Source: Alphaproteobacteria bacterium (lineage in GTDB: Bacteria; Pseudomonadota; Alphaproteobacteria; Rs-D84). Taken from it: 49,772 bases of DNA. A program made the position numbers and the translations under genes. The notes below the pieces were generated by a model that worked only from the letters and a program-made list of their open reading frames with translations, did no database searches and was not told the DNA's origin. Where the stretch lies: the NCBI GenBank assembly GCA_017630405.1, contig JAGBVH010000007.1, positions 70,506-120,277 on the forward strand, given 5' to 3'. Shown in pieces: positions 18,810 to 23,129 of the stretch (its first letter is position 1; every line of letters starts with the position of its first letter).

Positions 18810-20210
18810 TTACTGCTTCTTGTAATAGCGCTGAATTTCGTTCATTACAAAATTAAACAGTTTTTCCGACTGACTGTTAGGTGGCATCGTCCAATCGCGC
18901 TGCATATAAGGCATAGCAGCAATCAGAACAAAGCGCGCCATATAACGGAAAATCTTGCTGACCTGACCGCGCGAAAGCTTTGTTGGGGCGTTTTCAATAT
19001 AAAACACTTCGTTTTCAATCGCATCGTCCAGTTTTTCAATGATGTTATCAAGAACCTTTTGCGGATAATACAATTTACATTCGTGTGGAAAACCTTCGAA
19101 TATCGAAACATTGTTGTTGCGCGAATATAAAATATTCCAGCCCACGCGTTCGAATAAATCTGATAAGCAGTCGCAAATCATACGATTATAGGACTTAACA
19201 CCATTTTCCATGTAATTTGCCAACTGCGCTTCCATATTATCAGACTTGACATTTTTGCTTTTACGGGCGGCCTCGTACACATCGTGGGTTTTGCTTTCAA
19301 AACCAAAAAATGTACGAACCTGACAGATGATTTCCATTGGAATAACCGAGGTACCATGACCAATATTCAAAATAATCTTGGCATCACGATAATTACGCGG
19401 ATTGGCCATATCATAGAATTTATCACGATTGGAAATAATGCGTTCCGGCATCATTTCATATAAACGCTCTATAAATGTTCTAGCCTGAGGAATCAAATCA
19501 AACAAACACTTAACGCGCCAAACATCCTGAAGACGCAGATGCGGCTTTTCAATTTTATCCAATGCGCGAACCAAATCTGCGGCAATCTTTTCATGACCGC
19601 GACCAATAAGCCCCAGCACCGTTTCTGATGCATCGGTAATAAAACGCTGCCTAAAGGTTTCACGAATTTTATCAGAAATCGCACGTGCCGAAGCCTCGCG
19701 CCCATGCGAAACCAGCACATCATGAGCAGCATGCGCTACATCACGAATATAGTCATCATAATATTTGCCGGTAATTTTATCCAAGGCGCGCTTGACACTC
19801 TTTTGCGCACCAACAATTACTGTGACAATTGACGATACAGACAAATCAATTTTATGACCAGCGGAACTGGTAAAAAACTGATTACGCATAGGGTCCATAT
19901 CCAGTCGATGATTTACGATATAGGGGGACAATGGATTGATATCTGCGATACGAATATTGTCATCCAACACAGTATCGGTGGCATAGTCGTATTTCGCAAC
20001 CGCAGCCTTGGGCGCGCCAAAACATTTGCCAAGAACATAGAATATTTCGCGGAACCAAGACATACTGTCCGAATACAACGCGTTAAGATATTCGGCAGCC
20101 TCGGCATTGATGCGACCGGTTTCCAAGGCCTTGTCAATAAATGCCAGATTCTTGCTGTCGTTTTCCGTTGCCAGTTCCTGTGCCCAGTTATCCGAGCCTA
20201 TGTTAGACAT
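18810..20210 (-). CDS. unknown protein with RelA/SpoT-like nucleotidyltransferase pattern
   Basis: 466 residues, not matched with certainty. Residues 225-315 resemble the RelA/SpoT synthetase fold in order: R-L-Q-D-V-W-R-V-K-C-L-F (compare D-x-x-G-x-R), D263 in N-R-D-K-F-Y, N-P-R-N-Y-R-D-A-K at 270-278 (compare K-x-x-G-Y-R), M-E-I-I-C-Q-V-R-T at 292-300 (compare E-x-Q-I-R-T) and H309-x2-Y312. The N-terminal 220 residues and C-terminal 150 residues are mainly helical and unrecognised. Catalysis is uncertain because the match is distant. It starts 20 bases after lysS with AGGGGG upstream, so the two are co-transcribed. If real, a link between Lys-tRNA supply and alarmone metabolism would make sense. 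Confidence 0.7.
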   Translation of the reverse strand: MSNIGSDNWAQELATENDSKNLAFIDKALETGRINAEAAEYLNALYSDSMSWFREIFYVLGKCFGAPKAAVAKYDYATDTVLDDNIRIADINPLSPYIVNHRLDMDPMRNQFFTSSAGHKIDLSVSSIVTVIVGAQKSVKRALDKITGKYYDDYIRDVAHAAHDVLVSHGREASARAISDKIRETFRQRFITDASETVLGLIGRGHEKIAADLVRALDKIEKPHLRLQDVWRVKCLFDLIPQARTFIERLYEMMPERIISNRDKFYDMANPRNYRDAKIILNIGHGTSVIPMEIICQVRTFFGFESKTHDVYEAARKSKNVKSDNMEAQLANYMENGVKSYNRMICDCLSDLFERVGWNILYSRNNNVSIFEGFPHECKLYYPQKVLDNIIEKLDDAIENEVFYIENAPTKLSRGQVSKIFRYMARFVLIAAMPYMQRDWTMPPNSQSEKLFNFVMNEIQRYYKKQ

Positions 20211-20229: not shown

Positions 20230-21696
20230 TTATTTCATCATTGGGAACAAGACGATATCGCGCGCAGTTGGCTGATTAAATATGATGCATGCCAATCTGT
20301 CCACGCCCATACCCACACCAGAGATTGGCGGGAATCCATGTTCCATCGCACGAACAAAGTCGTTGTCTGGGTTAAATGCTTCTTCGTCACCATCGGCGAT
20401 ATTGCGCGCCTGTTCTTCGAATGCTGCCAACTGCTGGATTGGGTTTACCAATTCTGAATAACCCTTGCAGATTTCCGCACCACATACCAACAACTGGTAC
20501 ATATCAATACGACGTTCATCAGCATCATTACGACGCGCCAATGGTACCATATATGCAGGATAATTATACAAGAATGTAGGCTGTACAATACTGCCACGAA
20601 TCTTGCGCTTGTAAACATAGTCAACCAATGTTGGGATTGACTTCAAATCTTCCAATTCAGCCATTGGGAACATACCAGCATCAACCAATTTCTGGCGCAG
20701 AACATTTACATCATCAAATTCCAGAATGTCACAACCAAAGAATTCATTCATCTTGGCTGTATAATCTATCATTTCATACTTGCTGAAATCCAATTCAGTG
20801 CCTTGGTATTCGATTTGTAATGTGCCACGGCATTTCATCAACAATTCTTGAATCAGTTCCCATGTGAACTTGATATTATCATTAAAGTCCCAATAAGCAG
20901 CATACCATTCAACCATGGTGAATTCCTGAAGGTGGGTTGCGTCCATACCTTCGTTACGGAAGTCCTTGGCCACTTCATATACGCGGTCAAAACCGGCACC
21001 GATTGCCTGCTTCAAGAACAATTCTGGGGAAATACGCAACTGGAAGTCCGCATCCAACGCATTGTGATGAGTTGTAAATGGACGCGCCGCCGCACCAGAT
21101 GCAATATTCTGCAGGATTGGTGTTTCGATTTCCAAGAAACCGTTGCGGTTCATATAATCACGCCAATATTGTGTCATTTTAAAGCGGCCCAGCAAGGCAT
21201 TGCGCGCTTCGGGATTAGAAATAATATCCAGATAACGCTGACGATATCTTGTTTCCATATCGGTCAAACCATGATATTTTTCAGGCAATGGGCGCAAAGC
21301 CTTGGCCAAAATTTCATAGTTTGATACCTTGACAGTCAATTCACCTGCAGTTGTGTGATACAATTCACCTGTGATACCAATAAAGTCACCAAGGTCAACA
21401 TTTGCCTTCATAAACTTGTAATTTTCTTCGCCCAATTCTTCGCGCGACATAGAAAACTGAATTTCACCGTCAATGTCATAAATACGACCAAACATCAATT
21501 TGCCCAGCCAACGCAAAGCCGTCACACGCCCCGCCAATTTAACAGGTATGCCATCCGCCAAATCACGTGCCGCCGCAATCGTATGAGTGCGATCAAATTT
21601 ATCCTTCCATACTACACCATCACGGGCGCGAATATTTTCCGCCTTTTGCAGGCGCGCTTCTAATTCGTTGGTTGATATTTGTACTTTTTCTGACAT
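20230..21696 (-). CDS. lysS: lysyl-tRNA synthetase, class II
   Basis: 488 residues, usual length. An N-terminal OB-fold anticodon domain (about 50-150) is followed by the class II catalytic core. Motif 2 is in F-R-N-E-G-M-D near 260-266, and motif 3 is G-M-G-V-D-R-L near 463-469. R-I-S-P-E-L-F-L-K-Q and E-I-C-K-G-Y-S-E-L-V-N are typical of LysRS. It charges tRNA-Lys with lysine in the cytoplasm. The GNEG region reads E-G-M-D-A-T-H-L-Q-E-F-T, slightly unlike the usual R-H-N-P-E-F-T. It is preceded by an attenuator-like leader (21731-21859). Confidence 0.95.
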   Translation of the reverse strand: MSEKVQISTNELEARLQKAENIRARDGVVWKDKFDRTHTIAAARDLADGIPVKLAGRVTALRWLGKLMFGRIYDIDGEIQFSMSREELGEENYKFMKANVDLGDFIGITGELYHTTAGELTVKVSNYEILAKALRPLPEKYHGLTDMETRYRQRYLDIISNPEARNALLGRFKMTQYWRDYMNRNGFLEIETPILQNIASGAAARPFTTHHNALDADFQLRISPELFLKQAIGAGFDRVYEVAKDFRNEGMDATHLQEFTMVEWYAAYWDFNDNIKFTWELIQELLMKCRGTLQIEYQGTELDFSKYEMIDYTAKMNEFFGCDILEFDDVNVLRQKLVDAGMFPMAELEDLKSIPTLVDYVYKRKIRGSIVQPTFLYNYPAYMVPLARRNDADERRIDMYQLLVCGAEICKGYSELVNPIQQLAAFEEQARNIADGDEEAFNPDNDFVRAMEHGFPPISGVGMGVDRLACIIFNQPTARDIVLFPMMK

Positions 21697-21730
21697 TTTT
21701 TGTTTCCCTTGCTCTTCTTTTTTTTACATT

Positions 21731-21761
21731 AAAAAAACGGACGCGAAAAAGGTGCGTCCGT
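21731..21761 (-). terminator. intrinsic terminator in the lysS leader
   Basis: 8-bp perfect stem ACGGACGC/GCGTCCGT (21754-21761 and 21737-21744) followed by seven U on the minus strand, 35 bases before the lysS start and downstream of a promoter. Its first arm can also pair with GTGCGACC at 21782-21775. Confidence 0.8.
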
Positions 21762-21782
21762 CATTTAACCTGATGGTCGCAC
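21752..21782 (-). promoter_or_regulatory. antiterminator of the lysS leader
   Basis: GTGCGACC (21782-21775) can pair with GGACGCAC (21759-21752) through 5 bp, an A-A mismatch and 2 bp. This ties up the 5' arm of the terminator and would permit read-through into lysS. Confidence 0.5.
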
Positions 21783-21788
21783 ATTCAA

Positions 21789-21815
21789 TTAAAAACGTTT
21801 TTTCAAATTTAACAT
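21789..21815 (-). CDS. putative lysS leader peptide (MLNLKKRF)
   Basis: Eight codons, M-L-N-L-K-K-R-F, then TAA. Two adjacent AAA Lys codons (21803-21798) precede the antiterminator. The stop lies 6 bases before it, so a ribosome reaching the stop would cover the antiterminator arm, while one stalled at the Lys codons would leave it free. The ribosome binding site is weak, and the peptide is too short to be proven by sequence alone. Confidence 0.45.
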   Translation of the reverse strand: MLNLKKRF

Positions 21816-21853
21816 AGTTTTACTTTTTCTGTTAGACCTGCCTGTTTTTCGTG

Positions 21854-21880
21854 ATTATATTATTAATAATAAAATCACAA
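21854..21880 (-). promoter_or_regulatory. promoter of the lysS leader
   Basis: Minus-strand TATAAT (21859-21854) with TTGTGA (21880-21875) at a short 15-bp spacing. The predicted start near 21847 gives a 150-base leader. Confidence 0.5.
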
Positions 21881-21894
21881 AAGTAAAGAATTAA

Positions 21895-22134
21895 TTACTT
21901 CTGATTTTGTGACCGGACAAAACGCAACGAATCCAGCGTATATTGGCGGCGAGCCAATTCGTATTGTTTGCGCTGAAATTCGGCACTGGCGCGCGTATTT
22001 AATTCGGTTCCACATGTGTTCAGCGCAATTGTCGCCACCAACATCAGCAAAACCCATGAACGCATACCACCAAGTTTTACGCGCAGTGGATTATCAAAAT
22101 CATCTTGTTCTATTTTTACTTTGTTTCCTGACAT
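21895..22134 (-). CDS. small single-span membrane protein
   Basis: 79 residues from the ATG at 22134, which has GGGGTGGA upstream; an earlier start at 22161 overlaps the previous gene. A single membrane span is predicted at about residues 26-42 (WVLLMLVATIALNTC). The C-terminal half is polar and helix-forming, with many Arg, Gln and Tyr. Not recognised. It follows the coiled-coil membrane protein by 11 bases and may act with it. Last gene of the era operon. Confidence 0.7.
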   Translation of the reverse strand: MSGNKVKIEQDDFDNPLRVKLGGMRSWVLLMLVATIALNTCGTELNTRASAEFQRKQYELARRQYTLDSLRFVRSQNQK

Positions 22135-22145
22135 ATTCCACCCCA

Positions 22146-23129
22146 TTAAAACCAAGTCCAAGGTTGAAATACCTTTAACAATCCCAGCGCAGTACGCTTA
22201 TCCGCATAGGTATGGCCACAACGTGGGCATACATTAAATGGTTTCAGTATTGCCTTGACCTTTTTAGATACCAAGAACCATATATACACCCCAATTGCCC
22301 AGGCCGCCACAACCAATCCCCATGCAACATAGCCAAAATATTTATCAACTGTGCCTGTAATAATAGTCACTGTATCAACATCGGATTGTGACAGATCGTT
22401 ATAAATTTTGGTTGCGGTTGGCCAAGATGATGGTCGCCATGGATATACATGGTCAATGCCATAATTGGTCAGTAATGTTGTCCCCAATCCACCTGACTGC
22501 TTGTCCAACGCCTTTTTAATCGCCGCATCCAGCATTGTATCAAATTCTGTCTGGGCAACGCGTGTCAAATCACCCTGTATCTTGTCCAGTTTTTCGTTTA
22601 CCAGTTTCGCGGTATTATCAACGGATTCGATTGCCTGATTGGCCTTGGATACACCCTTGTCCACTTCGGCGACCGCCTTGTCCACACCATCTGTTTTTAC
22701 ACCAAACTTGCTGGCCAGACCTGTTAATTTTTTTACACCACTTGTCTTTTCTGTGACCGCAGCAGTTTTTTCTTTGGCCTTGGCAGTGCTATCAGTCACT
22801 TTACCAACCGCATTTTCCGCCATTTTTACCTTGTCAATCGCAGAAGCAATTGGCTTTTCCAGATTGATAGATTTTGCCACACCGTCCAGCAACGCTTCGT
22901 ACTGCTTTACAATGCCCTTTTGCAGGTCAAAGAACATGGACACAACAATAGATTTCTTAATCGGGGCAGAATATGTGTTTTTTATATGTAATGGCAACCA
23001 CGCAACCAACGCTAACCATACAACAGTTATAACTGTAAATGTGCGCTTGGTCATTTTAACAACAGACGCCTTTTTAGCAACGGTTTTTGCGCCACCCATA
23101 TCGATTACTTCAACTTGTTTCTTGGCCAT
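22146..23129 (-). CDS. membrane protein with central coiled coil and CPxCG end
   Basis: 327 residues, not recognised. A basic N-terminus leads to a membrane span at about 31-47. A long Lys/Ala/Val/Asp-rich helical region (about 80-200, repeating V-x-K-A-x-x-x-V) looks like a coiled coil, probably periplasmic. A second span is at about 262-288. The C-terminus has a C-P-R-C-G-H-T-Y-A-D-K-R knuckle at 301-312, half of a zinc ribbon. The plan, two spans with a long helical hairpin between, suggests an envelope spacer or tether. It overlaps neither neighbour and is in the same transcript as tgt and queA. Confidence 0.75.
   Translation of the reverse strand: MAKKQVEVIDMGGAKTVAKKASVVKMTKRTFTVITVVWLALVAWLPLHIKNTYSAPIKKSIVVSMFFDLQKGIVKQYEALLDGVAKSINLEKPIASAIDKVKMAENAVGKVTDSTAKAKEKTAAVTEKTSGVKKLTGLASKFGVKTDGVDKAVAEVDKGVSKANQAIESVDNTAKLVNEKLDKIQGDLTRVAQTEFDTMLDAAIKKALDKQSGGLGTTLLTNYGIDHVYPWRPSSWPTATKIYNDLSQSDVDTVTIITGTVDKYFGYVAWGLVVAAWAIGVYIWFLVSKKVKAILKPFNVCPRCGHTYADKRTALGLLKVFQPWTWF

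Follow-up and report, generated by a model that had tools for sequence, protein, structure and literature searches.

The class II lysine--tRNA ligase gene lysS lies at positions 20230-21696 on the minus strand of a 49,772-nucleotide stretch of DNA (the window), with an ATG start at 21696 and matches to NF001756 and TIGR00499 that both exceed the cut-off. The genome containing the window comprises 1.05 Mb in 30 contigs, and lysS is the sole lysyl-tRNA synthetase (LysRS) gene found in it; a search of this genome for a second lysS gave nothing beyond the level of related synthetases, and one for lysK gave no match at E 1e-20. The nearest relatives are uncultured Alphaproteobacteria, many of them from the ruminant gut, and one is Candidatus Enterousia merdequi. 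The host thus appears to be an Enterousia-like alphaproteobacterium, the genus being judged from protein identity and this one relative.

Every element that the original prediction, made from the DNA of the window, had placed ahead of lysS is present at its predicted minus-strand position, including the mini-ORF MLNLKKRF with two AAA Lys codons, an 8-bp terminator and seven U. The leader-peptide ORF (MLNLKKRF*, eight codons, ATG TTA AAT TTG AAA AAA CGT TTT TAA) occupies 21789-21815, with its control codons, AAA AAA (Lys-Lys), at 21798-21803, and the short frame thereby contains codons for the amino acid of the gene presumed to be regulated. Region 2, GUGCGACC, which forms the 5' arm of the putative antiterminator (GTGCGACC), follows at 21775-21782; 15 bases separate it from the last Lys codon and 6 from the stop codon, exactly as predicted, and the distance to the Lys codon is near-fixed across the 82 genus leaders. 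Pairing of this arm with the 5' arm of the terminator was also correctly foreseen, but the antiterminator hairpin (2:3) is longer than had been proposed, spanning 21752-21782 (GTGCG.A.CC.A.TCA / TGA.C.GG.A.CGCAC, 21782-21752) with a fold of -11.9 kcal/mol (z -2.9). The intrinsic terminator (3:4; 21731-21761; -14.9 kcal/mol) consists of the arms ACGGACGC (21761-21754) and GCGTCCGT (21744-21737) and a U-tract encoded by seven T (21737-21731), the first of which is paired within the stem. A simple consensus terminator scan did not list it, because its loop of 9 exceeds the limit of 8. A candidate region 1 (GGUC, 21835-21838) could pair with GACC in region 2, weakly so in the window.

A promoter-like pair lies upstream, as had been anticipated, with a -35-like TTTACT at 21882-21887 and a -10-like AATAAT at 21859-21864, 17 nt from it; from here a leader of about 155 nt would be transcribed. 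The -10 had originally been assigned to TATAAT (21859-21854), and comparison with L010 and other relatives makes AATAAT (21864-21859) the more likely hexamer. This pair is one of 20 promoter-like sites in 6 kb, where 15.2 are expected. Among leaders with enough sequence and no upstream tRNA gene, 42 of 54 carry TTTAC or TTGAC together with a -10-like hexamer, by an expression written after the sequences had been inspected and run without a shuffled control. Taken alone, the window gives a mildly unusual fold of the whole leader (z -1.93; 5 of 200 shuffles as good), which is unconvincing by itself.

The arrangement is very probably that of a Lys-specific ribosome-mediated transcription attenuator of the trp/pheST type, a known mechanism acting on an apparently undescribed target. 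A ribosome would translate the short leader ORF closely behind RNA polymerase. With ample Lys-tRNA it would proceed to the stop codon and cover much of region 2, allowing 3:4 to pair and transcription to end before lysS. With scarce Lys-tRNA it would pause at the Lys codons, its leading edge not quite reaching region 2, and the stalled ribosome would permit 2:3 to pair, preventing the terminator and leading to transcription of lysS. The front edge of a ribosome lies about 12-13 nt past the start of the A-site codon. By this textbook footprint, a ribosome on the Lys codons would leave region 2 just free, and one at the stop codon would mask it partly or wholly. That the ORF is translated, that ribosomes stall and transcription terminates, and which way the gene responds to lysine or to tRNA-Lys charging are inferred. 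For a short frame with one or two control codons, the theory given in the accessible text of PMC1183508 predicts a lower sensitivity than for a control region that is regulatory throughout.

The LysS protein of the window was searched against 97 genomes of the same genus, and the fetched upstream regions gave 86 lysS loci, at 82 of which the leader core is recognised. The other four comprise a locus that begins at a contig end (L028), one with only 42 nt, including the 3' part of the terminator (L050), one whose leader sits one gene farther upstream, ahead of an adjoining lysK (L044), and one without a leader (L053). A further lysS that is cut by a contig end (genome G007), and stands outside the 86, was read later and has the leader. 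A covariance model built from the 82 cores (R1) matches at E < 1e-8 in 87 of the 97 genomes by a hand count of the table, a figure that necessarily includes the 82 sequences used for the model, so that only the few others are informative. An intrinsic terminator lies between leader ORF and gene, its U-tract weak in L014 and L016, where just three U follow the stem.

One alternative is that this hairpin is simply the terminator of the upstream operon, the small ORF and second stem being due to chance. Terminators between operons are ordinary, and an upstream ORF does end at 21895, about 130 bases ahead of the hairpin. However, the element is kept behind differing upstream neighbours, with the terminator retained in the 27 of 82 leaders that have a tRNA gene upstream, and in the 80 leaders (of 82) that were measured the T-run ends 18-46 nt before lysS. 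The in-frame Lys codon is conserved, the alternative stems covary and the element precedes lysK as well (see below). The original prediction had itself raised the possibility of an operon-end terminator; such a reading is hardly credible, and it is considered refuted by the conservation, the covariation, the variety of neighbours and the lysK leaders. Inspection by eye of the about 35 nt between terminator and lysS, which are A-rich and contain AAGGGA at 21710-21705, revealed no promoter.

The short frame is present in all 82 genus leaders, beginning with ATG in 81 and with GTG in L066, and the stop codon of the chosen frame starts 3-10 nt ahead of region 2; if there were two possible stops, the frame-picking script favoured the Lys-containing frame. 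A Shine-Dalgarno-like triplet occurs in 66 of 82 leaders against 53 expected, a moderate excess. Second ATG frames that lack Lys are seen at four genus loci (L008, L011, L062, and L064) and in one leader from outside the genus (L209). An in-frame Lys codon at -24 to -13 of region 2 is found in 82/82 leaders, as compared to AAA or AAG in 44/82 and 45/82 at the same positions of the other two frames, as A-rich sequence would give. The start of the last Lys codon falls within -15 to -23, and for 65 of 82 leaders within -17 to -19. The control site contains two Lys codons in 47 leaders, Lys-Arg in 27, and a single Lys without Arg in 8, and either AAA or AAG is used for Lys. On a lysS tree computed from the first part of the gene (390 bases or more for each locus), at least 12 changes of the KK/KR/K state are counted, so that Lys is the constant part of the control site.

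Covariation was assessed in two alignments, A1 with the 82 genus sequences (81 distinct) and A2 with 45 sequences, namely 30 of the 82 genus cores hand-picked for variety and 15 others; kinship among the sequences inflates the covariation counts in such comparisons. In A1, 90.1% of antiterminator cells are paired, and covariation is 0.091 vs. 0.062 in shuffled alignments (none of 500 reached it), with a maximum of 0.054 for slid pairings; two-sided cells number 22 vs. 9.4 shuffled, with 25 and 22 after sliding by one or two columns. In A2 the antiterminator passes both controls for the score and the two-sided cells, with covariation of 0.150 vs. 0.098 shuffled (0/500) and a slid maximum of 0.049, and 23 two-sided cells vs. 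10.1 shuffled and a slid maximum of 10. The antiterminator, one arm of which also serves the terminator, covaries, although some single measures do not rise above the slid control. For the terminator, covariation is 0.177 vs. 0.150 shuffled (0/500) with a slid maximum of 0.096; two-sided changes are confined to one pair, and pair types number 5 vs. 5.9 in shuffles. Compensatory changes in both stems had been suggested as a check, and covariation supports the antiterminator, with thinner backing for the terminator.

Within the antiterminator, region 2 is GTGCGACC in 77 of the 82 genus leaders, and the apical stem takes nine paired forms (TCA/TGA, CAG/CTG, TAA/TTA, TGA/TCA, and CAA/TTG among them) with at least 15 changes between the 9 paired states on the lysS tree; 28 of 82 leaders lack a three-pair apical stem in the fixed registers. 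In A1, rows with CAG/CTG pair one column off, which leads to an undercount of the apical stem in the covariation values. When offsets were left free, 63 unique loops averaged 2.87 pairs vs. 2.51 (best of 1000 swaps 2.78), a modest excess, and more weight is therefore put on the fixed-register counts.

Folding of the leader prefix gives an antiterminator with z below -1.5 against its own shuffles in 81 of 82 leaders. Mean fold energies are -15.8 kcal/mol for the terminator and -13.2 kcal/mol for the antiterminator, and the terminator is the stabler of the two in 70/82. Folding of the window RNA to 21752 with the bases under a ribosome masked lets 2:3 form with the ribosome stalled and reduces it to a short apical remnant when the ribosome sits at the stop codon; without any ribosome the antiterminator also forms. 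In the fully transcribed window the terminator wins even with a stalled ribosome. Since the terminator is favoured at equilibrium once complete, the switch would have to be kinetic, with the antiterminator forming first. A protector hairpin (1:2) common to all leaders was sought and not established: it is among the best 5 of 100 in 23 of 81 leaders, being clear in part of the set only and weak or absent in many. The 1:2 duplex of the window reaches -7.6 kcal/mol (12 of 100 shuffles as good) and is stronger in some relatives; the mean over 81 leaders is -8.3 vs. -6.5 kcal/mol shuffled, in some cases confounded by tRNA 3' ends.

Beyond the genus, a family search covered 27 genomes of other genera, in 19 of which the region upstream of lysS is readable. 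The leader is present in 11 of these and absent from 8 (counted by eye); adding the named record L155 brings the outside leaders to 12. One of them (L210, genome G102) precedes a lysS that is 41% identical to a termite-gut query. The stems of the outside leaders differ in sequence, and most leaders can still adopt both alternatives (L151, for instance, has GCGCC.A.CGC/GCG.GGCGC); in L205 and L210 the full antiterminator was missing from the fold of the prefix. All twelve have two Lys codons in a row at -15 to -23. The encoded peptides are MKLYSKKFN, MSGQTKKFS, MKQNLKKSLI, MKRMCKKFR, MSNNTKKFS, MFVIKKLYN, LKSKKLM (TTG start), MMFVCKKIHI, MNMSKKP, MPGFKKCYN, MKSNLKKLYN, and MLFLKKRYK, two of which have a longer in-frame start available, and Lys-Lys is the only visible element common to all. 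Relatives within and outside the genus have thus kept the small frame and its Lys codons, as the original prediction had expected.

These peptides also bear on the view that a nascent peptide, rather than a lack of Lys-tRNA, stalls the ribosome. Arrest peptides such as TnaC and SecM are well-known, and within the genus a basic-then-hydrophobic peptide ending K-K/R/I/F-x-F/L is recurrent. Between genera, however, the residues after Lys vary (FN, FS, SLI, FR, LYN, LM, IHI, P, CYN, and RYK), and the codons alternate between AAA and AAG. Moreover, eight residues barely reach into the ribosome exit tunnel. An arrest peptide is therefore very improbable, and stalling on the Lys codons for want of Lys-tRNA is the preferred reading.

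At wider distances, a comparable layout with the ORF MSLKRKQLKKFFAA is seen in genome G170 (L214), which belongs to a different family of the order; it was matched in 1 of 3 genomes, with no second copy. Four other order-level loci (L213, L215, L216, and L217) have no leader by eye, and a second model (R2), run under strict filters on 385 genomes of the class, matched only four Enterousia genomes. These searches gave no indication that the RNA extends beyond the family.

LysRS occurs as class I and class II enzymes, as set out in the accessible text of PMC2916919. The class I gene, lysK, was found in 7 of the 97 genus genomes. In three genomes (G013, G084, and G094), reached through strong R1 matches lying away from lysS, the leader precedes a class I lysine--tRNA ligase of 522-525 aa, assigned by a family search for L253 and L256 and, for the others, by 86-87% identity to L253; these genomes have no class II lysS match beyond the level of related synthetases. 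In a fourth (G050) the order is leader, lysK, lysS, and the remaining three lysK genes (G019, G088, and G091) have no leader in front. The gene that follows lysS in the window also follows lysK in L253 and L254. The lysK leaders of G013, G084, G094, and G050 are 97.6, 95.1, 95.1, and 95.1% identical to the lysS leaders L047, L032, L054, and L054, respectively, and 62-92% identical to one another. Because the lysK leaders are closer to lysS leaders than to each other, the enzyme appears to have been exchanged behind the switch. The simplest reading is of at least two class replacements, with three probable, behind a leader that stayed, and G050 is possibly an intermediate of the exchange.

Class I and class II LysRS are unrelated proteins. 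As the same leader stands before both, it would respond to Lys-tRNA and not to protein, and the exchange behind a nearly unchanged leader constitutes a natural experiment on the sensed signal and the strongest single line of evidence here. What comparison among the genomes brings out is a conserved frame, with its Lys codons, spacing and alternative stems, and a tie to two unrelated LysRS genes. Autogenous control, in which LysRS would bind its own leader RNA with the ORF incidental, has a precedent in E. coli ThrRS, which binds its own leader RNA; the regulated product binds tRNA, and conservation of region 2 within the genus is high. Against this, one leader serves both enzyme classes, and between genera the stem sequences change while pairing is largely kept and the Lys codons are constant. 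Control by the enzyme itself is accordingly very unlikely, and sensing of Lys-tRNA by a translating ribosome remains the favored mechanism.

A new kind of direct tRNA or lysine riboswitch would be a further candidate, T-box and L-box RNAs being the established sensors of charging or of lysine for genes of this sort in the accessible parts of PMC2916919 and PMC1262725. No Rfam family matches the lysS leader at the gathering threshold, neither T-box (RF00230) nor the lysine riboswitch (L box); a relaxed threshold returned 15 low matches, all below gathering and none to either of these two. The conserved parts of the ~155-nt leader are moreover accounted for by the ORF, 2:3, and 3:4, and a direct riboswitch is scarcely tenable beside ribosome-mediated attenuation.

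Attenuation ahead of a synthetase operon is familiar from pheST of E. coli, the leader of which is named pheM, and the pheST leader peptide is longer than that of the lysS leader. Attenuators have been described before the synthetase genes pheST, trpS, and leuS (PMC1262725, accessible text). That of pheST in gammaproteobacteria resembles the lysS leader as a classical attenuator of a synthetase operon (PMC1262725), but it senses Phe where the leader described here would sense Lys, and here the downstream enzyme appears to have been swapped between unrelated classes. The Streptomyces trpS and leuS genes likewise have classical attenuators (PMC1262725), and in bacilli hisS paralogs are preceded by a His leader peptide (PMC2965389, as far as accessible), these cases concerning other amino acids and phyla; a term search of the latter source for lysS or lysyl gave no hits. 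For the lysine operons of Actinobacteria, no conserved upstream structure is reported in the accessible text of PMC1262725. The trp and his attenuators of enterobacteria share with the lysS leader the mutually exclusive 2:3 and 3:4 pairings and the control codons before region 2, but they govern biosynthetic operons and have a 1:2 pause hairpin (PMC1183508, accessible text), which is weakly supported in the lysS leader.

T-box leaders have been reported before LysRS genes in four species, and the rarity of T-box control over LysRS has been described as puzzling (both from the accessible text of PMC2916919). Those before Bacillus cereus lysK and before lysS of Clostridium beijerinckii and Symbiobacterium also tie LysRS of either class to tRNA-Lys charging (PMC2916919). 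They bind tRNA directly, whereas the lysS leader would use a translating ribosome, and in the same accessible text they are reported only beside a second LysRS (PMC2916919), whereas the gene controlled here is the only LysRS found in the window's genome. A search of open-access literature, judged mostly by title and abstract, for LysRS attenuation, a LysRS leader peptide or the phrase "lysS leader" found no report, in agreement with the original claim that no lysS gene had been described under such control. The leader would therefore add lysine and both LysRS classes to the known ribosome-mediated attenuators, and charging control appears to govern the sole LysRS found in the genome.

Other synthetase genes of the genome, with names checked against NCBIfam, were also considered. 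The ileS gene is preceded by the short frame MKKQAIIIIK and a terminator; a short frame in which three or more Ile codons stand in a row occurs before ileS at 29 of 30 genus loci read, that of the window's genome included and L301 excepted, these 30 being drawn from 57 genomes with ileS. The thrS gene is preceded by MKQIYVFFTTTTTTPLGV, with a Thr run and a weaker U-tract, and the scan used found no terminator before valS or leuS. Enterousia is placed in the order Rs-D84, from the genomes of which amino-acid biosynthesis pathways are reported absent (PMC12306168, accessible text). With slightly better than even confidence, we propose that in Rs-D84, an order of genome-reduced gut bacteria, stability lies with the charging sensor and not with the enzyme: a single Lys attenuator would have been inherited in place while the LysRS class was repeatedly swapped, as part of a genome-wide attenuator set (Lys, Ile, Thr, perhaps Met) that replaces control of lost biosynthesis. 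This suggests that auxotrophic, genome-reduced bacteria may hold amino-acid control at charging enzymes and not at biosynthetic operons.

The metG gene has the short frame MRMYK and a terminator ahead of it, as read in a single genome, and aspS has a T-box-like leader that scores 30 bits against a gathering score of 93 (E 3.8e-05) and contains AGGGUGGCACCGCG.

The leader type that precedes lysS, the gene for the class II lysyl-tRNA synthetase, is also found ahead of lysK, which encodes the unrelated class I enzyme. At four loci (L253, L254, L255 and L256) a lysS-type leader is followed by lysK, either alone or as a lysK-lysS pair. At a separate locus (L257, contig C34 of genome G007) the leader occurs twice, with a spacing of about 5.4 kb; the second copy precedes lysS, and directly behind the first there is no open reading frame of at least 90 aa on the same strand. 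Neither lysS nor lysK was found in five of the 97 same-genus genomes searched (G030, G031, G048, G056 and G065), two of which have high estimated completeness (G048, 98%; G065, 96%). Gaps in the assemblies or a different lysyl-tRNA synthetase may account for this. Outside the family, a similar arrangement precedes a lysS of 39% identity in G170, a genome from another family of the order (L214:1273-1328). It includes a leader-like reading frame, MSLKRKQLKKFFAA, with predicted antiterminator arms GCGAUGUU/AACAUCGC and predicted terminator arms ACAUCGC/GCGGUGU; a second copy for comparison was looked for and not found.

Leaders of other synthetase genes were also read. Ahead of ileS, the window's own genome (L272) and loci L281-L310 have a reading frame in which three or more Ile codons stand in a row (MKKQAIIIIK and similar peptides), together with a terminator-like hairpin; the Ile run is present in 29 of the 30 genus ileS loci read. 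Judged from its sequence, this leader is a predicted isoleucine attenuator. In the window's own genome, the region upstream of thrS (L276) carries the leader reading frame MKQIYVFFTTTTTTPLGV, with six Thr codons. The region upstream of metG (L275), read in this one genome, carries the short frame MRMYK; a stem with arms CAACGGG/CCCGTTG is also present there and shares sequence with a terminator. A T-box-like leader containing AGGGUGGCACCGCG lies upstream of aspS in an alphaproteobacterium (L002:2319-2507, minus strand; 30 bits, E 3.8e-05, below the Rfam gathering score); Alphaproteobacteria are absent from the T-box groups listed in PMC2916919.

For three minus-strand protein genes around lysS in the window (18810-20210, 21895-22134 and 22146-23129), comparison with NCBIfam and Pfam at E 0.001 gave no match. 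The first of them (18810-20210) encodes a 466 aa protein, relatives of which adjoin lysS or lysK in five of the seven loci searched.
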